A stretch of 64,000 nt of DNA from positions 62,001-126,000 of the forward strand of contig JAHBWZ010000009.1 of assembly GCA_019636755.1 (NCBI GenBank), in the 5' to 3' direction. A model generated the notes under the pieces. That model was not told the DNA's origin and ran no database searches. It was given only the letters and a program-made list of their open reading frames with translations. A program made the translations under genes and the position numbers. Below, piece by piece: positions 33,500-59,025 of the stretch (within the stretch, counting starts at the first letter, position 1; every line of letters starts with the position of its first letter). The stretch is from Phycisphaeraceae bacterium. GTDB lineage: Bacteria > Planctomycetota > Phycisphaerae > Phycisphaerales > SM1A02.

Positions 33500-33990
33500 C
33501 GCCTCCAAGTGCACAGACTCAGCCGCCTGGCTTTCTGTCTTCGCTCTGAAAGCGCACGCCAAGGGGGGCTGTCGCCCCCCTTGAACCCCCCTGGCGAGGT
33601 GACGCGTCCTGTCGCTCGGGCGCCGTGGCATCGCCTCCCGTGGCATCGCCGTCCTCAGCGATGCCACGATGGGTGATGACTCCGCGAGCGTCGGCGGCCG
33701 GGCTGCTGCGCGCGGGTCATGCCGAGGCACGCAGATGAGGATCCTGGGAGCGGCGACCCGCAGGCTCCGGTTCACCGTGCAGGAGCCTGACGACAGCAAG
33801 GGGGGTTCAAGGGGGGCGGAGCCCCCATTGGCGTGCGCGATCAGGGCGCGCAGTGACACCCGCGTGCTGCTCAAGCCAGCGGCTGCCGCGCGGGAGTGCC
33901 TGTCCCACGTCCGTCCCACGTCCGGCCCCGAAAAAAATCTCAGATTCTGAGCAGAATCGCCACCGGATCGGCATATCTGTCTCTGGCGGG

Positions 33991-34036
33991 GTCCGGGGGT
34001 CCGGGGGTCCGGGGGTCCGGGGGTCCGGGGGTCGGG
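33991..34036 (+). repeat. Tandem repeat, five units of GTCCGGGG
   Basis: Five perfect 8-bp units (33991-34030) and a broken sixth, about 140 bp upstream of the ATG of the HAF-type gene. It may affect promoter spacing of that gene. Confidence 0.9.
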
Positions 34037-34175: not shown

Positions 34176-35870
34176 ATGACAGCACAGACGGACCTGACTG
34201 ACCACCGGGCGCGCCGACGGGCGCGCAGCACCGCGATCCGCGATCCGCGATCCGCGATCCGCGATCCGCGATCCGCGATCCGCGATCCGCGATCCGCGAT
34301 CCGCGATCCGCGATCCGAATTCTACTGGCTGCCGGACTGACCACCATGGTCCCCGTCCTCGCGCTCTCGCGGGCCGATGAGCCGGACTGCGGACCGGCGT
34401 GCGATCGACCCGGGTACGCCATCGTGGACCTGGGGCCGCTGAATGAACAGAACGATCCCATGTCTCCCCTTCCCTTCTCACCGGAGGCTGAACGCACCGG
34501 TCGCTTCGGCATCAACGCGCACGGCCAGGTGGCGTTCACGCGCCGGATCGATGAGGCGCATCGCCCGTACATCTGGCTTCCGCGTCCGGCGCATGGACTG
34601 TCGGCCGGCGTCCACGCCCTGGTCGATCTCTTCCCGCAGTTCGACTTCGGGGATCACGCCAGCGCGGTGGACATCAGCGACAACGGATCTGTCGCCAGTG
34701 CCGCGCGGGATCGGGCACGGGGCCATACATCACCCGTGACAGCGCGTACATCGCCGACCTCTCCGGTCGATGGTGACACACGCGCGCGGGTGATCGATGG
34801 ACTGTCCTCGGGCGCGTGCGAGGAAGGCGGCGGCTGAGCCGCGGCGTCGCGGTCGTCGACGACGGCTCGGTCCCCGTCATGGTCATGGGAGGCGGGGGCG
34901 TCTGGCCAGCGCCTTCGGAAGTCTACTTCTCATCCGACACCTGGTGACTGACCGACTGCCCACGCCGACGGTGACCGCACTGACCGGCACGGGTTCCCAG
35001 CGAGCCTGGGCGTTCGATATCGATCGCGTTATGGCAGTATGAACTCGCCGCCGCGGAGATCGCGATCCCAGGGTCGGGCACTGTGGCGTGACGATCACCT
35101 ATTACTGCGAGGTGGAGGATGTGCCGGCCCGGATTCGTAGCCGCGGCCGCGGGTTCGCCCCCACGATCTCGGCGCTCTGGTGACTTTCGGCACGACGTCC
35201 CAGAGGACGTGCGGCTTCGGTCGCGGCGTGGATCGCGGCGGGACGGTGGTGGGGTAGCGCGCCACCCTGCCCGACCCGCCGTCGTCGCCGGACTGCGACC
35301 TCAACGCGCTGCTGTGGGGACCCTGCGACAACGGCGCTTACACGAATCTGCATCTCGTGCTCGGGGACTGTGCCGGTTCTCCCCGCCGAGTCGATCAACA
35401 CCAAGCGCGCCCAGGCGCGCATCGTCGGGTGGGATCCGCTGAGGACAGCATCCCTGCTCTGGGTCGAGCACGAGACGCTCGACGGCTGGCAGGGGTTACC
35501 GGCTCCAGGTGGACACGCACCCGGTGTATCCGGGCATCGTCGACGCCGGCACCTGTCCGGGCTGGACGCGGCGAAGCGTACGACGTCAACGACGCCGGCT
35601 GGATCACCGGCTGGGGCATCCGGACGATCGGCGAGGTCAGCCAGCCGCATGCCTTCGTGCTGGTGCCGACGAGCTGTCCTGCCGACCTGATCAGGGACGG
35701 CAGGTCGATTTCCCTGACCTGCTGATCCTGCCTGTGTTTTTACTTCTGACGCATCGTGCGCACACCGACGGGACCATGCGAACTGCCATGGATGGAACTC
35801 TGCCCGGCGACCTGACGGCAACGGCGTGGTCGAGCTTCCTGACCTGGCCGTTCCTGCTCGTACTGGGGTC
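34176..35870 (+). pseudogene. HAF-type secreted dockerin protein, out of frame behind a heptamer repeat and further frameshifted
   Basis: ATG 34176 follows GGAG and encodes a basic leader (MTAQTDLTDHRARRRARS). Twelve perfect CGATCCG units (34234-34317) follow. The signal-peptide core ILLAAGLTTMVPVLALSRA-DEP lies right after them but in another frame; the ATG frame stops at 34340. One more unit (13) or two fewer (10) would fuse them. The mature part shows HAF-type signatures (GINAHGQVAFTRRI, VDISDNGSVAS, AYDVNDAGWITGWGI...HAFVLVP) scattered over at least three frames to about 35690, then a dockerin-like tail (VDFPDLLIL...GDLTGNGVVELPDL, needing shifts). It is either a decayed gene or a region with indel errors. 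Confidence 0.7.
34234..34317 (+). repeat. Tandem repeat, twelve perfect units of CGATCCG
   Basis: 84 bp without a mismatch, placed between start codon and signal-peptide core of the HAF-type gene. Seven is not a multiple of three, so each gain or loss of a unit changes the frame. Confidence 0.95.
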
Positions 35871-42579: not shown

Positions 42580-44338
42580 ATGCCGCGGGAATACCCCGAC
42601 TGCGGCGTCGAGAATCAGATCTCGCGACCCCGCCGCGCCGTTCGCCAGCACTGAGCAGGTCGCCCATGCCGACGCCGTTGCCGTCCAGGTCCGCAGGTAG
42701 GTTCCGCAGGTCGCGCCACCGCCGGGGTGCGGGCGCACACGGCATCCCAGAGCTGGCGAGGACCAGGAGCATGTCCTGAAGCTGACCGCGCCGTCGCGAT
42801 TCGATGCTCTGCCGTGGCAGGTGCGGGGATCGTAGATGAAGGCATGCGGCTCAATCGGGCCCTCATCGTGTTCGGCGAAACCCCCAGGCGACGATCCAGC
42901 CCCTTGTCATTGACATCCAGCAGATGGCGTACCTGCACATCGCTCACCGCAGTGTCCACCTCGGGTTGCCCCAGGTCCGCAGCATCCAGCACCCTGCGCA
43001 GTCCACGGCGGATTCTTGGAGCGGGGCTTCGGTCCAGAGGATGGGGATGTTGGTCCCCGCCGCGAAACCCACAATCTGCGGCACGCCGCCGGGACACGGC
43101 CTCTGCGCGAGTGCGCTAGTCCGGGTTCCGTCGGCACCACCGCGCAGTCGACCCGCGTGCCGGTCCCGCCGGCCAGAGCGCCGCCTGCTCCAGGCACTGC
43201 GCGCCCGATGCCGCCCACGCGTATCCCACCGTGTCCAGGCTCTGCGCTGATGCGCGGCCGCTCCTGCGGCGGGGGCGAAGGCGGGCAGGGGCAGGCGGGA
43301 TGGGAGGCCAGCCGGGTCAGATCCTCCGGGCGTCGCGGATGGCGGCACCATCCAGTGACCCGCATGCGTGTCCTGCCTGCAACTGCAGAACGCACTCTGC
43401 ACCGGGCAAGTGGGATCGTCCTGCTGCACCACCCGGTGCGAGCGTGCCGGCGATCGCGCCCCGCCCCAGGGCGTTCAGAAATGACACGTCTGGAGACGCT
43501 GGGAATGCACCGTCGACGCCCGGCAGTCGATTGGGCAGCAATCGCCGGTCTGCGAGGCGGCGTCGAAGTACGCGGCGACCGCGGTCACGAACCGGCGGCA
43601 CTCCGCGGTCCGGTCTTCGCACAGCGCCCCTGCCTGCACTCGGTGACGCACTGGGACTCGCGTGATTCTTCGAGCGCCGCCCAGCAGTCCCGGCAGAAGA
43701 TACCTGACGCCGCGATCGCGCGTCCACTGCGACTGCGTCCGCGACGCTGGGCTGGAACAGCGTGTATGCCATGGCTGCGGCGGATCGGGCGTTTGCTGAA
43801 CTGTGGCAGGTGCCACACTGTCGCGCGTCCCGTGCCGGCCATGATGCCGCCGCTCTGTCCCACCACGGTTCCATGCCGTGACGTTCCAGGCGCGCGATCG
43901 ACGGTGCATCGGACCCTGACAAGGCCGAAAGATCGTGGATCCCCGGTCCAAGCCCGAAGCCGCCGAACGGCAGCCAGACGGCTGCCCTCGGAACGCCGTT
44001 CACTCTGACCGCGAACGCGACGATCCCCTCGCCCCCATCGCCGTTGATCCCGAATGCCCCGGTGCCGAGGTCCAGCGACATGAGCCCGGTGACGGGGTCG
44101 CCCGGTGTCACGATGAAGCCGATCGGTCCCGCGTCGATCAGGTCGTAGGGCGGAGCGGCAGAGACCGGCTCCGGATCAGGCGGCAGGGCGGCCATGCAGA
44201 ACACCAGGCACAGGCTCGCCACCCGCCGGCGGCGCGCCAGGGCACATCGCTCGCTCAGCGCGCAGGCAGGCCGTGGGCCGTGGGCCGTGGGCCGTGGGCC
44301 GTGGCGAATTGACAGGACAACCGGGTTCTCGATTGCAT
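42580..44338 (-). pseudogene. HAF-type secreted dockerin protein, out of frame behind a heptamer repeat and further frameshifted
   Basis: ATG 44338 is preceded by GGAGG at 6 nt. Twelve codons later come five units of the heptamer (CACGGCC on this strand). The ATG frame stops shortly after (TGA near 44255). The signal-peptide frame (LARRRRVASLCLVFCMAALPP...SAAPPYDLIDAGPIGF) is offset by one base; one more unit (6) fuses them without a stop. The mature part runs open to about 43900 (GAFGINGDGGEGIVAFAVRVNG), then continues in pieces: a Cys-rich stretch (CRDCWAALEESRESQC), VNDKGWIVAWGF...HAFIYDP and a dockerin-like end (ADLDGNGVGMGDLLS) near 42660, in several frames. It is the second HAF-type locus with this layout. 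Confidence 0.7.
44269..44303 (-). repeat. Tandem repeat, five perfect units of GGCCGTG (CACGGCC on the coding strand)
   Basis: 35 bp without mismatch between start codon and signal-peptide core of the HAF-type gene on the minus strand. Confidence 0.95.
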
Positions 44339-55400: not shown

Positions 55401-55867
55401 GCCCCCTCGTGCCCCTGACACCGGGCTTCGGCCCACGGACCCGGGCCGAAGCCCGGTCCCGGAACGCACCGGCCTGCCCGGCATCAACCCATCCGCCGAG
55501 GTGGTCGTGCGGGCCGCGCCTCCCGCGCTTGACTGCCACCCACCCCGCTGTACCGTGGACTTCGGGATCCGCTCACACGTCGATTCCCGAACAGCGCCCG
55601 CCGGTTTCCGGCGTATCCACTTCCATGGGCGCTGTGCTGATTGCCTTGGGTTCCGCTGTTTCTCTCTCGACATCCCGGTCCGATTGGCCCCCCGGCACCC
55701 CCGGTACCCCCGGTCACCCCCGGTCACCCGGTCACCTCGGGCATCCGGTTCCCGGCCCCGTGGCCCCCGCTCGCACCGGCGCGTGGGGGCGCACGTGTTC
55801 CCCGCCTGCCCTGGGCCCGCGTTCCGTCGAGGTCAACCCGCACCCCTCACCCAGGAGACCCGCCCGC

Positions 55868-56545
55868 ATGCGACCACCACCTGCGACCCATTCGCCCGGG
55901 CACCGTGAACGTGCCCCGGCGCGCGCCGCGCCCGACCGGCTTGCCCGGATCGCCGCGCTTCTCTCACTTCTGATCGCCGCTGCGCCGGCGCACGCCGCCC
56001 TGGTCGAACTGACGTTCTCCGGGCAGGTGACGCAGATCCTCGGCACACCGCACGGACAGTGGGGCACCATCGGACTCGGCGATCCCTTCGTCGTGCGCTG
56101 CGTGATCGATTCGGAGGCCGAGGATCAGGTACCGGGATCCGCCACCGGGCTCTACTTCTATGAGTCCGTGTCCATCTCCGTCGGACCGTACACCGTCTCC
56201 GCCGGAACCGGTGTGTTCAACAACATCATCGTCGACCCTCCGGGCTCGCCCCCCTTCTGGATGAGCGAGTACCTGCTGAGGTATTACGACCCCGACGGCG
56301 AGTGGCAGGGACTCATCTACCTCATGGGCCCAGGCGCCCTCCAGGATGACTCGCTGCCGATCGACCTGGACCTGAGCGCGTTCACTGCACTCAAGCGTAT
56401 GGCGCTCAGTTTCGATGAGAGCAACTCAACGATTCGCGCCGTTCCCACTGCGTACACGTTCCGCTTCCTCCCGGCCCCCGGCGCACTCGCGCTTCTGGCC
56501 GTCACCGCGCTCTTCCCGCGCCGACGACGTCGTCGGCGCACCTGA
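55868..56545 (+). CDS. PEP-CTERM-like secreted protein
   Basis: 225 residues from ATG 55868, with AGGAGA 10 nt upstream. A long basic leader precedes the hydrophobic core (IAALLSLLIAAAPAHA-ALV). The mature domain (ELTFSGQVTQILGTPHGQWGTIGLGDPFVVRCVID ... TGLYFYESVSISVGPYTVSAG) resembles beta-sandwich domains of secreted planctomycete proteins. The tail LPAPGALALLAVTALF followed by seven Arg fits PEP-CTERM sorting. It is unrelated in sequence to the cassette proteins. A degenerate ACCCCCGGT repeat lies about 140 bp upstream. Confidence 0.85.
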   Translation: MRPPPATHSPGHRERAPARAAPDRLARIAALLSLLIAAAPAHAALVELTFSGQVTQILGTPHGQWGTIGLGDPFVVRCVIDSEAEDQVPGSATGLYFYESVSISVGPYTVSAGTGVFNNIIVDPPGSPPFWMSEYLLRYYDPDGEWQGLIYLMGPGALQDDSLPIDLDLSAFTALKRMALSFDESNSTIRAVPTAYTFRFLPAPGALALLAVTALFPRRRRRRRT

Positions 56546-56576
56546 TCCCATGTCCTGTTCAAGGAGTCGAATCATG

Positions 56577-56596
56577 ACAGACAGACAGACAGACAG
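56577..56596 (+). repeat. Tandem repeat, five perfect units of ACAG
   Basis: Begins directly after the ATG. Four is not a multiple of three, so each unit gained or lost changes the reading frame of the signal peptide. Confidence 0.95.
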
Positions 56597-58282
56597 AGCA
56601 ATCCGCGTGTCAGCACGACCGCATCTCGTCTCCCCGCGCTGACTTCTGCGCTTCTGCTCGCATGCACCGGCCTCGCACGTGCGCAGGAGTGCGGCGTCGA
56701 TGAACCCGCGGTCACGATCCTGCCGCACGCCAACGCGTCGTCCGCCTATGTGATCCAGTTCGGCTGGTCGATCGCGGTGCGTGGTGACCGGGTGGTCGTC
56801 GGCGGTATCGAGGACGGGGTGTTTCACTACGGCGGCAACGCCGGCCCGGGGTTCGTCTCGGTCTACACCGTCGGCGTGGACGACGACCGGATCGTCGCTG
56901 GTGCGCCGTTCCACAGCATCGGGATGAACATCCGTGCCGGCGCCGCCTGCATCTTCACCCGCTCCGGATCCACGTGGACGCAGTCGGCGATCCTCGCCGC
57001 AAGCACGCCGGCGACCGATGCCAGGTTCGGCACGTCGGTCGCCCTGGCCGGCGATCTGGTCGCCATCGGCGCTCCTCGTGAGAACGGCGGTGCGAGCGAA
57101 TCCGGCGCCGTCCACATCTTCCGGCTCGAGAGCGGCACGTGGACGCACCGCAAGCGACTGACGGCGCCGTCGGCGAGTGCCGACGATCACTTCGGATCCG
57201 CTGTGGCTCTCGACGGCACCACACTGGTCGTCGGGTGCCCGCTCCGTGAGAACGGAGCTGTGGACGACGCCGGCGCCCTCTTCCTCTACGACCTCGCCGA
57301 CAGCGACCCCGCCGAGTGGTCCCTGACCGCCACCCTGGTCGACCCCGATCCTCGCGAGGACCAGCAGATGGGGTCGGCCGTCTCGATCAGCGGCAGCCTC
57401 ATCGCGGCCGGTGCCCCGATGCACGACATCGGCAGCGGGTCATGCCCGGGCGTCGGCACCGGAAGCACCAGGTTCGGCGCGGTGCACCTCTTCCGCCTGG
57501 ACGCCGGTGACTGGCACCACGAGCAGCGCGTGGCACTGACGAGTCCCGCCTGCCACGGCATCGCGAACTTCGGATGGTCCGTCGCGGTGGCGGACGGTCG
57601 GCTGCTCGCAGGCGCACTCCAGGAGGCCACCCAGGACAACGGCATCGGACACGACGCCTTCCTCTTCGAACGCACCGGCCGAGGCTGGGTGCTCCTGCGC
57701 CGGCTCGTCCAGTCGTCCGGGGGCACGACCCCCGAGGAGCGCTTCGGCAACGCCGTGGCATTCGTCTCGCCGAATCACCCCGTGGTCGGCGCCCCGAACG
57801 TGCCGCATCCGGTGTTCGGAATCGATGGGCATGCCTACACGTTCGAGATCGAGATCGCCGACTGCGACGGCAACGGCATCGACGACTGCGCGGAGATCGC
57901 GGCCTGCGCCGTCGCCGACTGCAACGGCAACGGCATCCCCGACTGCTGCGACATCGCGGCAGAGACCTCGGAAGATGCGAACGGGAACGGCATCCCCGAT
58001 GAGTGCGACGCGCTGCTGGACTGCGGCGGATCACTCGCCGACTGCACTGTCAATGGCATGCCGGACGAATGCGAGCGGCCGGGACTCTTCGACGTCATCT
58101 TCGTTCTGGACGAGTCCGGAAGCGTCGTCGATGGCAACCCGCCGACGTTCGATCTCCAGAAGGACGCGGTCAGGGCCGCCATCTGCGGACTCGGCGCACT
58201 CGACGCGTTCGCAGCGATCGCATCGCTGCGGGCGAAACGGCTTCCCGAGCACGCGCAGCAGACACCCATGGGAGCTGGCGTC

Positions 58283-58800
58283 CATGCAACCCCTCTTCGC
58301 GCATGCAGGTGGGTTCCGGTCATCCGGCGCACGAGTAGTGGTGTCTGCACGCGCAGGATCCCGGGTCAGGTGCTGAGGACATCAGGCGACGACGGCGCGC
58401 CCGATGCGTTGCGCGAGAAGGCGCGTCCGGGATCGCCCACCCGCGAGGGGGGGTTGCAGGGGGGCGCTTCAGCCCCCCTGCGCATGCGCGTTCAGAGAGC
58501 GACGGCGTGCACGGCGCAGTGCCCTGGTGCATCATCAAGCTCGCTGACTCGGGCATGCACGCGTGCGCGCGCTCGCTCGCCCGCCCGATGTCGTTCCAGG
58601 CAAGCGGCTGACCTCGAGTGCCCTGATCACTCGATTCTCCGTCAGGGGGCGCGAGCGCAGGGGGGGCTGAGGCCCCCCCTGCAACCCCCTTGCGCGCATG
58701 AGGGTGGTGGAGGTCAGCCGGCGTGCGAGTGGTGGTGTCTGCGCGCATCCGGTCGCGCCGAGCAGGTCGGTCTCGTGAAGCGCTCCCCACCGTCCGCCCC
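58283..58800. repeat. Dispersed GC-hairpin repeat array inside the vWA gene
   Basis: Contains GGGGGGTTGCAGGGGGG (near 58446) and CCCCCCTGCAACCCCC (near 58675), and two copies of a TCAGCCGGCG-like/GAGTGGTGGTGTC segment (58318 and 58715). From 58645 to 58790 it is nearly identical to 41447-41590. Gene-like sequence lies on both sides. Confidence 0.75.
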
Positions 58801-59025
58801 TGCGATCCGCGCGGACTGGTGGAGTACGGCGCGGACGTCGAGGAACTCCACGCTGCCCTGCGCCGTGTCATCATCCAGGACCTGCTCGGCTGCCCCGGCG
58901 TGCCGCAGAACCTCTGCAACGACGACGCCCCCTGGCTCTGGGACTGCAACGGCAACGGCATCCCGGACCGCATCGAGCGATACGGGTACAACCCCGCGGA
59001 CCTGACCGTGGGAAAGAAGGCGTGA

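Follow-up and report, generated by a model that had tools for sequence, protein, structure and literature searches.

A perfect tetramer repeat stands directly behind an ATG in the window, the whole stretch of 64,000 nucleotides analysed here, and this ATG does not share a frame with the signal peptide and the long gene that follow it. The locus raises the question of whether the repeat works as a switch for a secreted protein, or whether the gene is dead, misassembled or started elsewhere. We think it probable that the locus is one of about 15 translational contingency loci with an Opa-like anatomy, at which slipped-strand events would cause phase variation of secreted proteins.

A tetramer repeat between start codon and signal peptide

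Start codons and signal peptides were assigned by eye throughout. The locus is the second gene of a pair and contains the following features.

55868 to 56545, plus strand: upstream gene of the pair, an open frame of 225 aa from its likely ATG, secreted, with a C-terminal hydrophobic-plus-arginine tail
56561 to 56566, plus strand: AAGGAG, Shine-Dalgarno-like, 7 nt before the ATG, read from the sequence
56574 to 56576, plus strand: ATG start codon of the short frame, read from the sequence
56576 to 56597, plus strand: perfect period-4 array of 5.5 units (ACAG × 5 + AG), unique in the genome
56630 to 56686, plus strand: stretch coding for the signal peptide (LPALTSALLLACTGLARAQ), in a frame shifted by one from that of the ATG; it aligns with the leader of the paralogue on contig C17, which is in frame
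56640 to 56642, plus strand: TGA stop of the ATG frame, after 22 codons
56687 to 58213, plus strand: body with four FG-GAP_2 stretches, D-x-N/D-G-N-G repeats and a match to positions 1-32 of a VWA model
58282 to 58786, plus strand: interspersed repeat element interrupting the VWA part, with the same insertion in the C17 copy
58798 to 59025, plus strand: displaced gene tail (GLVEYGADVEELHAAL..DCNGNGIPDRIERYG..), in another frame

The array opens with the G of the ATG itself. The leader frame encodes ..RLPALTSALLLACTGLARAQEC.. and stays open after a TGA at 56543-56545 as far as 59005. It holds no ATG, GTG or TTG before GTG 56750, which already lies inside the body. A CTG at 56555 was rejected as a likely start, as it has no Shine-Dalgarno by eye. 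This copy is OFF in the assembly, and frame arithmetic shows that one more unit or two fewer would put the ATG and the leader into one frame. The sequence-only reading had described a repeat between ATG and signal peptide, an ATG frame ending at about 56642, a clean signal peptide out of that frame, and a continuous leader with a sixth unit or with three units. We find all of these in place; the AAGGAG is also present, at a spacing of 7 nt and not of 5 as had been stated. The locus has a trait of SSR contingency loci, a perfect short tandem repeat with a non-3n unit within the 5′ coding part. Behind it lies an intact frame that whole units can restore, the last part of which runs through the inserted element.

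The gene had been called a propeller/vWA gene, and the propeller half of this name stands. Performing a Pfam search, we found four stretches of FG-GAP_2 (PF14312) in the body (E 4.2e-42, 142.6 bits against a cut-off of 23), which makes it an FG-GAP repeat protein. The VWA_2 match covers positions 1-32 of 107 and stays below the cut-off (E 0.011, 16.8 bits against 27); the element follows, and the window gene contains no complete VWA domain. In the displaced tail, we found no VWA match and no Pfam match above the cut-off. The last part of the open frame to 59005 is element sequence. The element is abundant, as the genome contains 181 matches to it (scores were taken for 40 of 178 candidates), and is made of building blocks of about 200 bp with GGGGGG/CCCCCC inverted repeats, often in tandem. 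The Pfam search of the upstream gene gave no match. That gene is preceded, about 140 nt ahead of its likely start, by an imperfect CCCCCGGTCA-type array (55689-55729), of which the C17 copy has a shorter form.

We rejected a chance origin of the arrays by dinucleotide shuffles and composition-matched simulations. A 15-nt piece of the motif appeared in none of 100 dinucleotide shuffles of the window, and the window locus is the sole occurrence of ACAG × 4 in the genome (4,110,699 bases, 20 contigs). We also took a census of arrays in 1.264 Mb (29% of the genome plus window), made up of 60 systematically sampled 20-kb stretches and the window. It yielded one perfect tetramer array of at least 22 nt and six heptamer arrays of at least 34 nt, while 20 order-1 Markov simulations yielded none of either kind. 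In the sample alone, all three arrays with at least five units of a 4-8-nt unit were leader arrays, and these are mutually related. Two sampled tetramer arrays of 4.25-4.5 units were set aside, as they are not leader arrays. Outside the census, the search covered the units looked for by pattern, and other units may exist elsewhere in the genome.

Leader arrays across the genome

A pattern search with CCRCGRN × 4 gave 11 arrays, a protein search gave three more, and together with the two tetramers the set came to 16 leader-array loci, 14 of them heptamer loci. In each, a GGAG-containing sequence precedes an ATG, which is followed by the array and a hydrophobic stretch. The units ACAG, AGTC, CCGCGAT, CCACGGC and GTTCGCG were seen, in different leaders. 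The two further loci of the window and the computed phases of all 16 are as follows.

34177 to 34317, plus strand: second window locus, ATG 34177, (CCGCGAT)12.4 at 34231-34317, one unit short
44269 to 44338, minus strand: third window locus, ATG 44338-44336, (CCACGGC)5.1 at 44304-44269, one unit short
ON, 3 loci: C17; C14:125k; C14:147k
One unit short, 9 loci: three in the window; C13; C7; C12:85k; C12:457k; C12:288k; C12:497k
Third frame, 4 loci: C14:31k; C9; C12:113k; C4

A chi-square test does not reject equal thirds across the frames (about 3.9 with 2 df, calculated by hand on loci that are not independent). The tetramer locus had been presented as the third of one design, with all three loci short by exactly one unit. 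The two other window loci do share the design, but both are heptamers. The shortage by one unit is true within the window and is no rule for the genome, where 9 of 16 loci show it. C13 and the window locus at 34231 may be two copies, or two alleles, of one locus, since they are identical from 33988 to about 34688; their upstream octamers count 7.75 (C13) and 5.75 units (window). Discounting C13 leaves 15 loci, of which 8 are one unit short. Two places were omitted from the table, C12:284k (L190; about 1.5 units, degraded) and the close paralogue C16:196k (L241), which has no array.

The GTTCGCG group comprises eight leaders, whose flanks are 81.0-92.9% identical to one reference member with few gaps. 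Their arrays hold 2.57, 3.57, 3.57, 5.57, 6.57, 6.57, 8.57 and 9.57 units, so they differ by whole-unit steps only. Differences of this type between similar leaders are what slippage or unequal exchange leaves behind, and we read them as the trace of such events. All eight loci are OFF, a mild excess over chance. The OFF loci outside the window have an open body of 482-593 codons in 10 of 10 cases.

Repeat-number phase variation is thus well supported as a genome-wide design, because the 16 loci fall into all three frames, their bodies are open, and similar flanks carry different whole-unit numbers. At these loci, an array with a non-3n unit separates an ATG that follows a Shine-Dalgarno sequence from the hydrophobic core of the signal peptide. 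Slippage, or recombination between copies, would alter the unit number and move the ATG into or out of frame with the signal peptide and the body. The ON state would make a pre-protein and export it, and the OFF state would make a peptide of 22-56 codons. This model predicts unit numbers that change among the cells of a population, expression of the ON copies with export of their products, and a use of the variation to the cell. Loss of MutS was dropped as an explanation, as the genome has one MutS-type match.

At 7 of the 16 loci, octamer arrays (GGGGTCCG-type, 2.75-7.75 units, counted from at least 2.75 units) lie upstream of the leader ATG, with their ends 107-174 nt away from it, and are possibly a second, transcriptional array. 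They are located at 33988-34033 in the window and also at L173, L171, L170, L098, L174 and L197.

The in-frame paralogue and the state of the OFF genes

The closest paralogue within the genome, on contig C17, is 63% identical in amino acids over query residues 69-507. It forms the same gene pair, as a homologue of the upstream gene also precedes it. Its ATG is followed by AGTC × 6.75, another tetramer, and stands in frame with a leader that reads MCSQSVSQSVSAIRVPLLHAPVLPLVLALSAIPEARA-YEC.. at the head of an 847-aa ORF. The sequence TCAGTCAGTCAGTC has no second occurrence in the genome. Comparing the two copies, we found 96% identity without gaps from 57842 to 59008 (1167 bp, element included), 75% in the propeller (589 bp), 80% in the upstream gene (859 bp) and 96% over 189 bp further upstream of that gene. 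The element sits at the same place within the VWA part of both tetramer genes, and its C17 copy is 99% identical over 609 bp. This patchwork of identities likely reflects gene conversion or patchy duplication.

The comparison also locates the source of the phase difference. From the ATG to a shared flank, GCAATCCGCGTG, there are 24 nt in the window and 33 nt in C17, both 0 modulo 3. From this flank to GAGTGC there are 77 nt in the window versus 69 nt in C17, a net difference of 8 nt. Since the array has the same frame in both copies and the leader behind it differs by a net 8 nt, the phase difference comes from the leader and not from the array. The earlier reading of repeat-number switching therefore holds across the genome, but at this locus the comparison does not prove that the repeat causes the OFF state. 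The 8-nt difference fits a contingency locus, where the unit number could absorb a leader indel, but it fits a plain frameshift too.

The above observations raise the possibility that the window copy is an inactivated duplicate, which an ordinary indel in the leader (or in the array) would have put out of frame for good, the array being incidental. The unchanged frame of the array, the element shared by both VWA parts and the absence of a 27-residue propeller stretch present in C17 would all suit such a history. The missing stretch is an in-frame gap, however, and the body shows no stop or frame break apart from the element that the ON copy also has. The dN/dS of the window-C17 pair is 0.59 (bootstrap 0.48-0.71), and other loci show the same design with open bodies. 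We thus consider an inactivated duplicate unlikely.

In the other bootstrapped pairs, the dN/dS was 0.33 (0.27-0.42) for C12:85k-C12:113k, 0.44 (0.34-0.55) for C14:31k-C9 and 0.52 (0.24-1.00) for C7-C13, a pair too similar to tell; it is clearly below 1 in three of the four bootstrapped pairs. The other two frames of the window-C17, C12:85k-C12:113k and C14:31k-C9 pairs gave 0.92-1.78. The point estimates of all 11 pairs tried range from 0.33 to 0.77, in a comparison of paralogues that does not separate past from present function.

The products of the tetramer genes are FG-GAP proteins by Pfam. We tested three heptamer-gene products; two gave matches to dockerin or EF-hand models that stay below the cut-offs, and the third gave none. 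A literature search on 'GC-type dockerin' found no paper. Judged from the leaders by eye, all these products would be exported.

A miscalled unit number or leader base could also make a gene appear OFF that is truly in frame, and the window does contain noisy patches. After about 700 identical bases, it departs from C13 from about 34688 to about 36600 by scattered 1-3-nt gaps, and the gene behind 44269 (minus strand) is broken relative to C14:147k. Both patches look like unpolished long-read sequence. The body lengths of the two window heptamer loci (172 and 299 codons) are not to be trusted. The tetramer gene is free of such noise, as its 1167 bp align with C17 gap-free and its frame is open. 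The ten OFF loci outside the window, with open bodies and differing unit numbers, speak against the same error. An assembly error is improbable as the reason for the OFF state.

Another question is whether the OFF frames are silent at all. If ribosomes restarted at a nearby in-frame ATG, the array would change the N-terminus and not the expression. In 10 of the 13 OFF loci, the stop does have an in-frame ATG close by, which starts 2-8 nt past its first base (TGATG, TGACATG, TGACCACCATG). These ten loci represent only three sequence contexts, though, methionine is common in signal peptides, and by eye no Shine-Dalgarno precedes these ATGs. At the window tetramer, restart is impossible, as its leader frame lacks any start codon up to 56750. 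We rate restart as a highly improbable account of the OFF loci.

In the GTTCGCG leaders (L098, L104, L180 and L197 versus L106, L172 and L174), both out-of-frame readings end near an in-frame ATG (TGATG; TGACATG). There is a very slim chance that the arrays act as a switch with three states, which would set the location of the protein, and not as an on/off switch. In one frame, the complete signal peptide would be made, basic n-region included. The second would stop on the in-frame ATG (TGATG) and restart inside the hydrophobic core, and the third would stop at TGACATG and restart behind the core, giving a protein without a signal peptide. Among the GTTCGCG leaders, the second state fits 4 of 4 loci and the third 3 of 4; the window tetramer does not fit.

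L104 has a leader like that of L098 and a body like that of L173 (41.6% amino-acid identity versus 34.3% to L098). Judging from these three loci, family members seem to have swapped leaders and bodies.

Known contingency loci and relatives in other genomes

In Haemophilus influenzae, the lgtC gene carries GACA repeats. Among surface proteins, the opa genes of Neisseria gonorrhoeae have CTCTT repeats in the leader-peptide coding sequence, according to excerpts of PMC3745409. The loci described here resemble them in having non-3n repeats within the leader coding sequence and in forming a dispersed secreted or surface family (about 11 opa genes) with copies in and out of frame. They differ in their units, in their FG-GAP or dockerin-like products and in their planctomycete-like host, and their switching is a proposal from sequence. 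H. influenzae R2846 has a locus with 14 AGTC repeats immediately downstream of the start codon, as excerpts of PMC2651432 report. The tetramer directly behind the start codon is a common trait, and AGTC is also the unit of the C17 copy. Unlike the R2846 locus, which encodes a glycosyltransferase homologue that is not secreted, the array here precedes a signal peptide, and heptamers dominate. The same excerpts place heptamers about 100 bp upstream of hmw1A and hmw2A (PMC2651432). The upstream octamers at 7 of our 16 loci are comparable in position; unlike in hmw1A and hmw2A, leader arrays come in addition to the upstream arrays. On sequence evidence, and by analogy, the leader arrays may work like the opa and H. 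influenzae contingency loci.

Contingency loci embedded in leaders have been described mainly in host-adapted bacteria. Excerpts of PMC4060949 state a strong correlation between long simple repeats and a dependence on eukaryotic hosts. If our reading is true, stochastic variation of exported proteins would exist also in a GC-rich planctomycete-like genome, at about 15 loci, and annotation would miss or truncate such genes. In the open-licence literature, as available in excerpts, we found no paper describing leader-array phase variation in Planctomycetes.

Relatives of the body were found at 27 named loci, 24 from Planctomycetota lineages, two from unspecified bacteria and one from a Myxococcota MAG. 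Checking 46 homologous loci from other genomes (39 of them including the upstream end of the gene), we found one array, outside the leader. A further 28 loci in other genomes, reached through a heptamer-gene product, had one weak octamer, again outside the leader. A search for CCRCGRN × 4 hit 4 of 151 family genomes, namely the host's own, G003, G088 and G106. The places inspected in G003 (C32 and one of two overlapping places on C233) and in G088 had no leader array, and the G106 match was discarded as no regular array. WCAG × 5 occurs in 3 of 121 family genomes: the host's own, G033 (in an odd low-complexity contig) and G129. No further leader array was seen among the places inspected in these 121 and 151 genomes, and conservation of the design across the family is not supported. 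The design was not found at the homologous loci of other genera. As the searched genomes all lie outside the host's genus, it is simplest to assume that the design arose and spread within this lineage. In G129, a same-family relative, TCAG × 5 (contig C61, 19187-19206; L209) stands directly before, not behind, the ATG of a secreted-protein gene.
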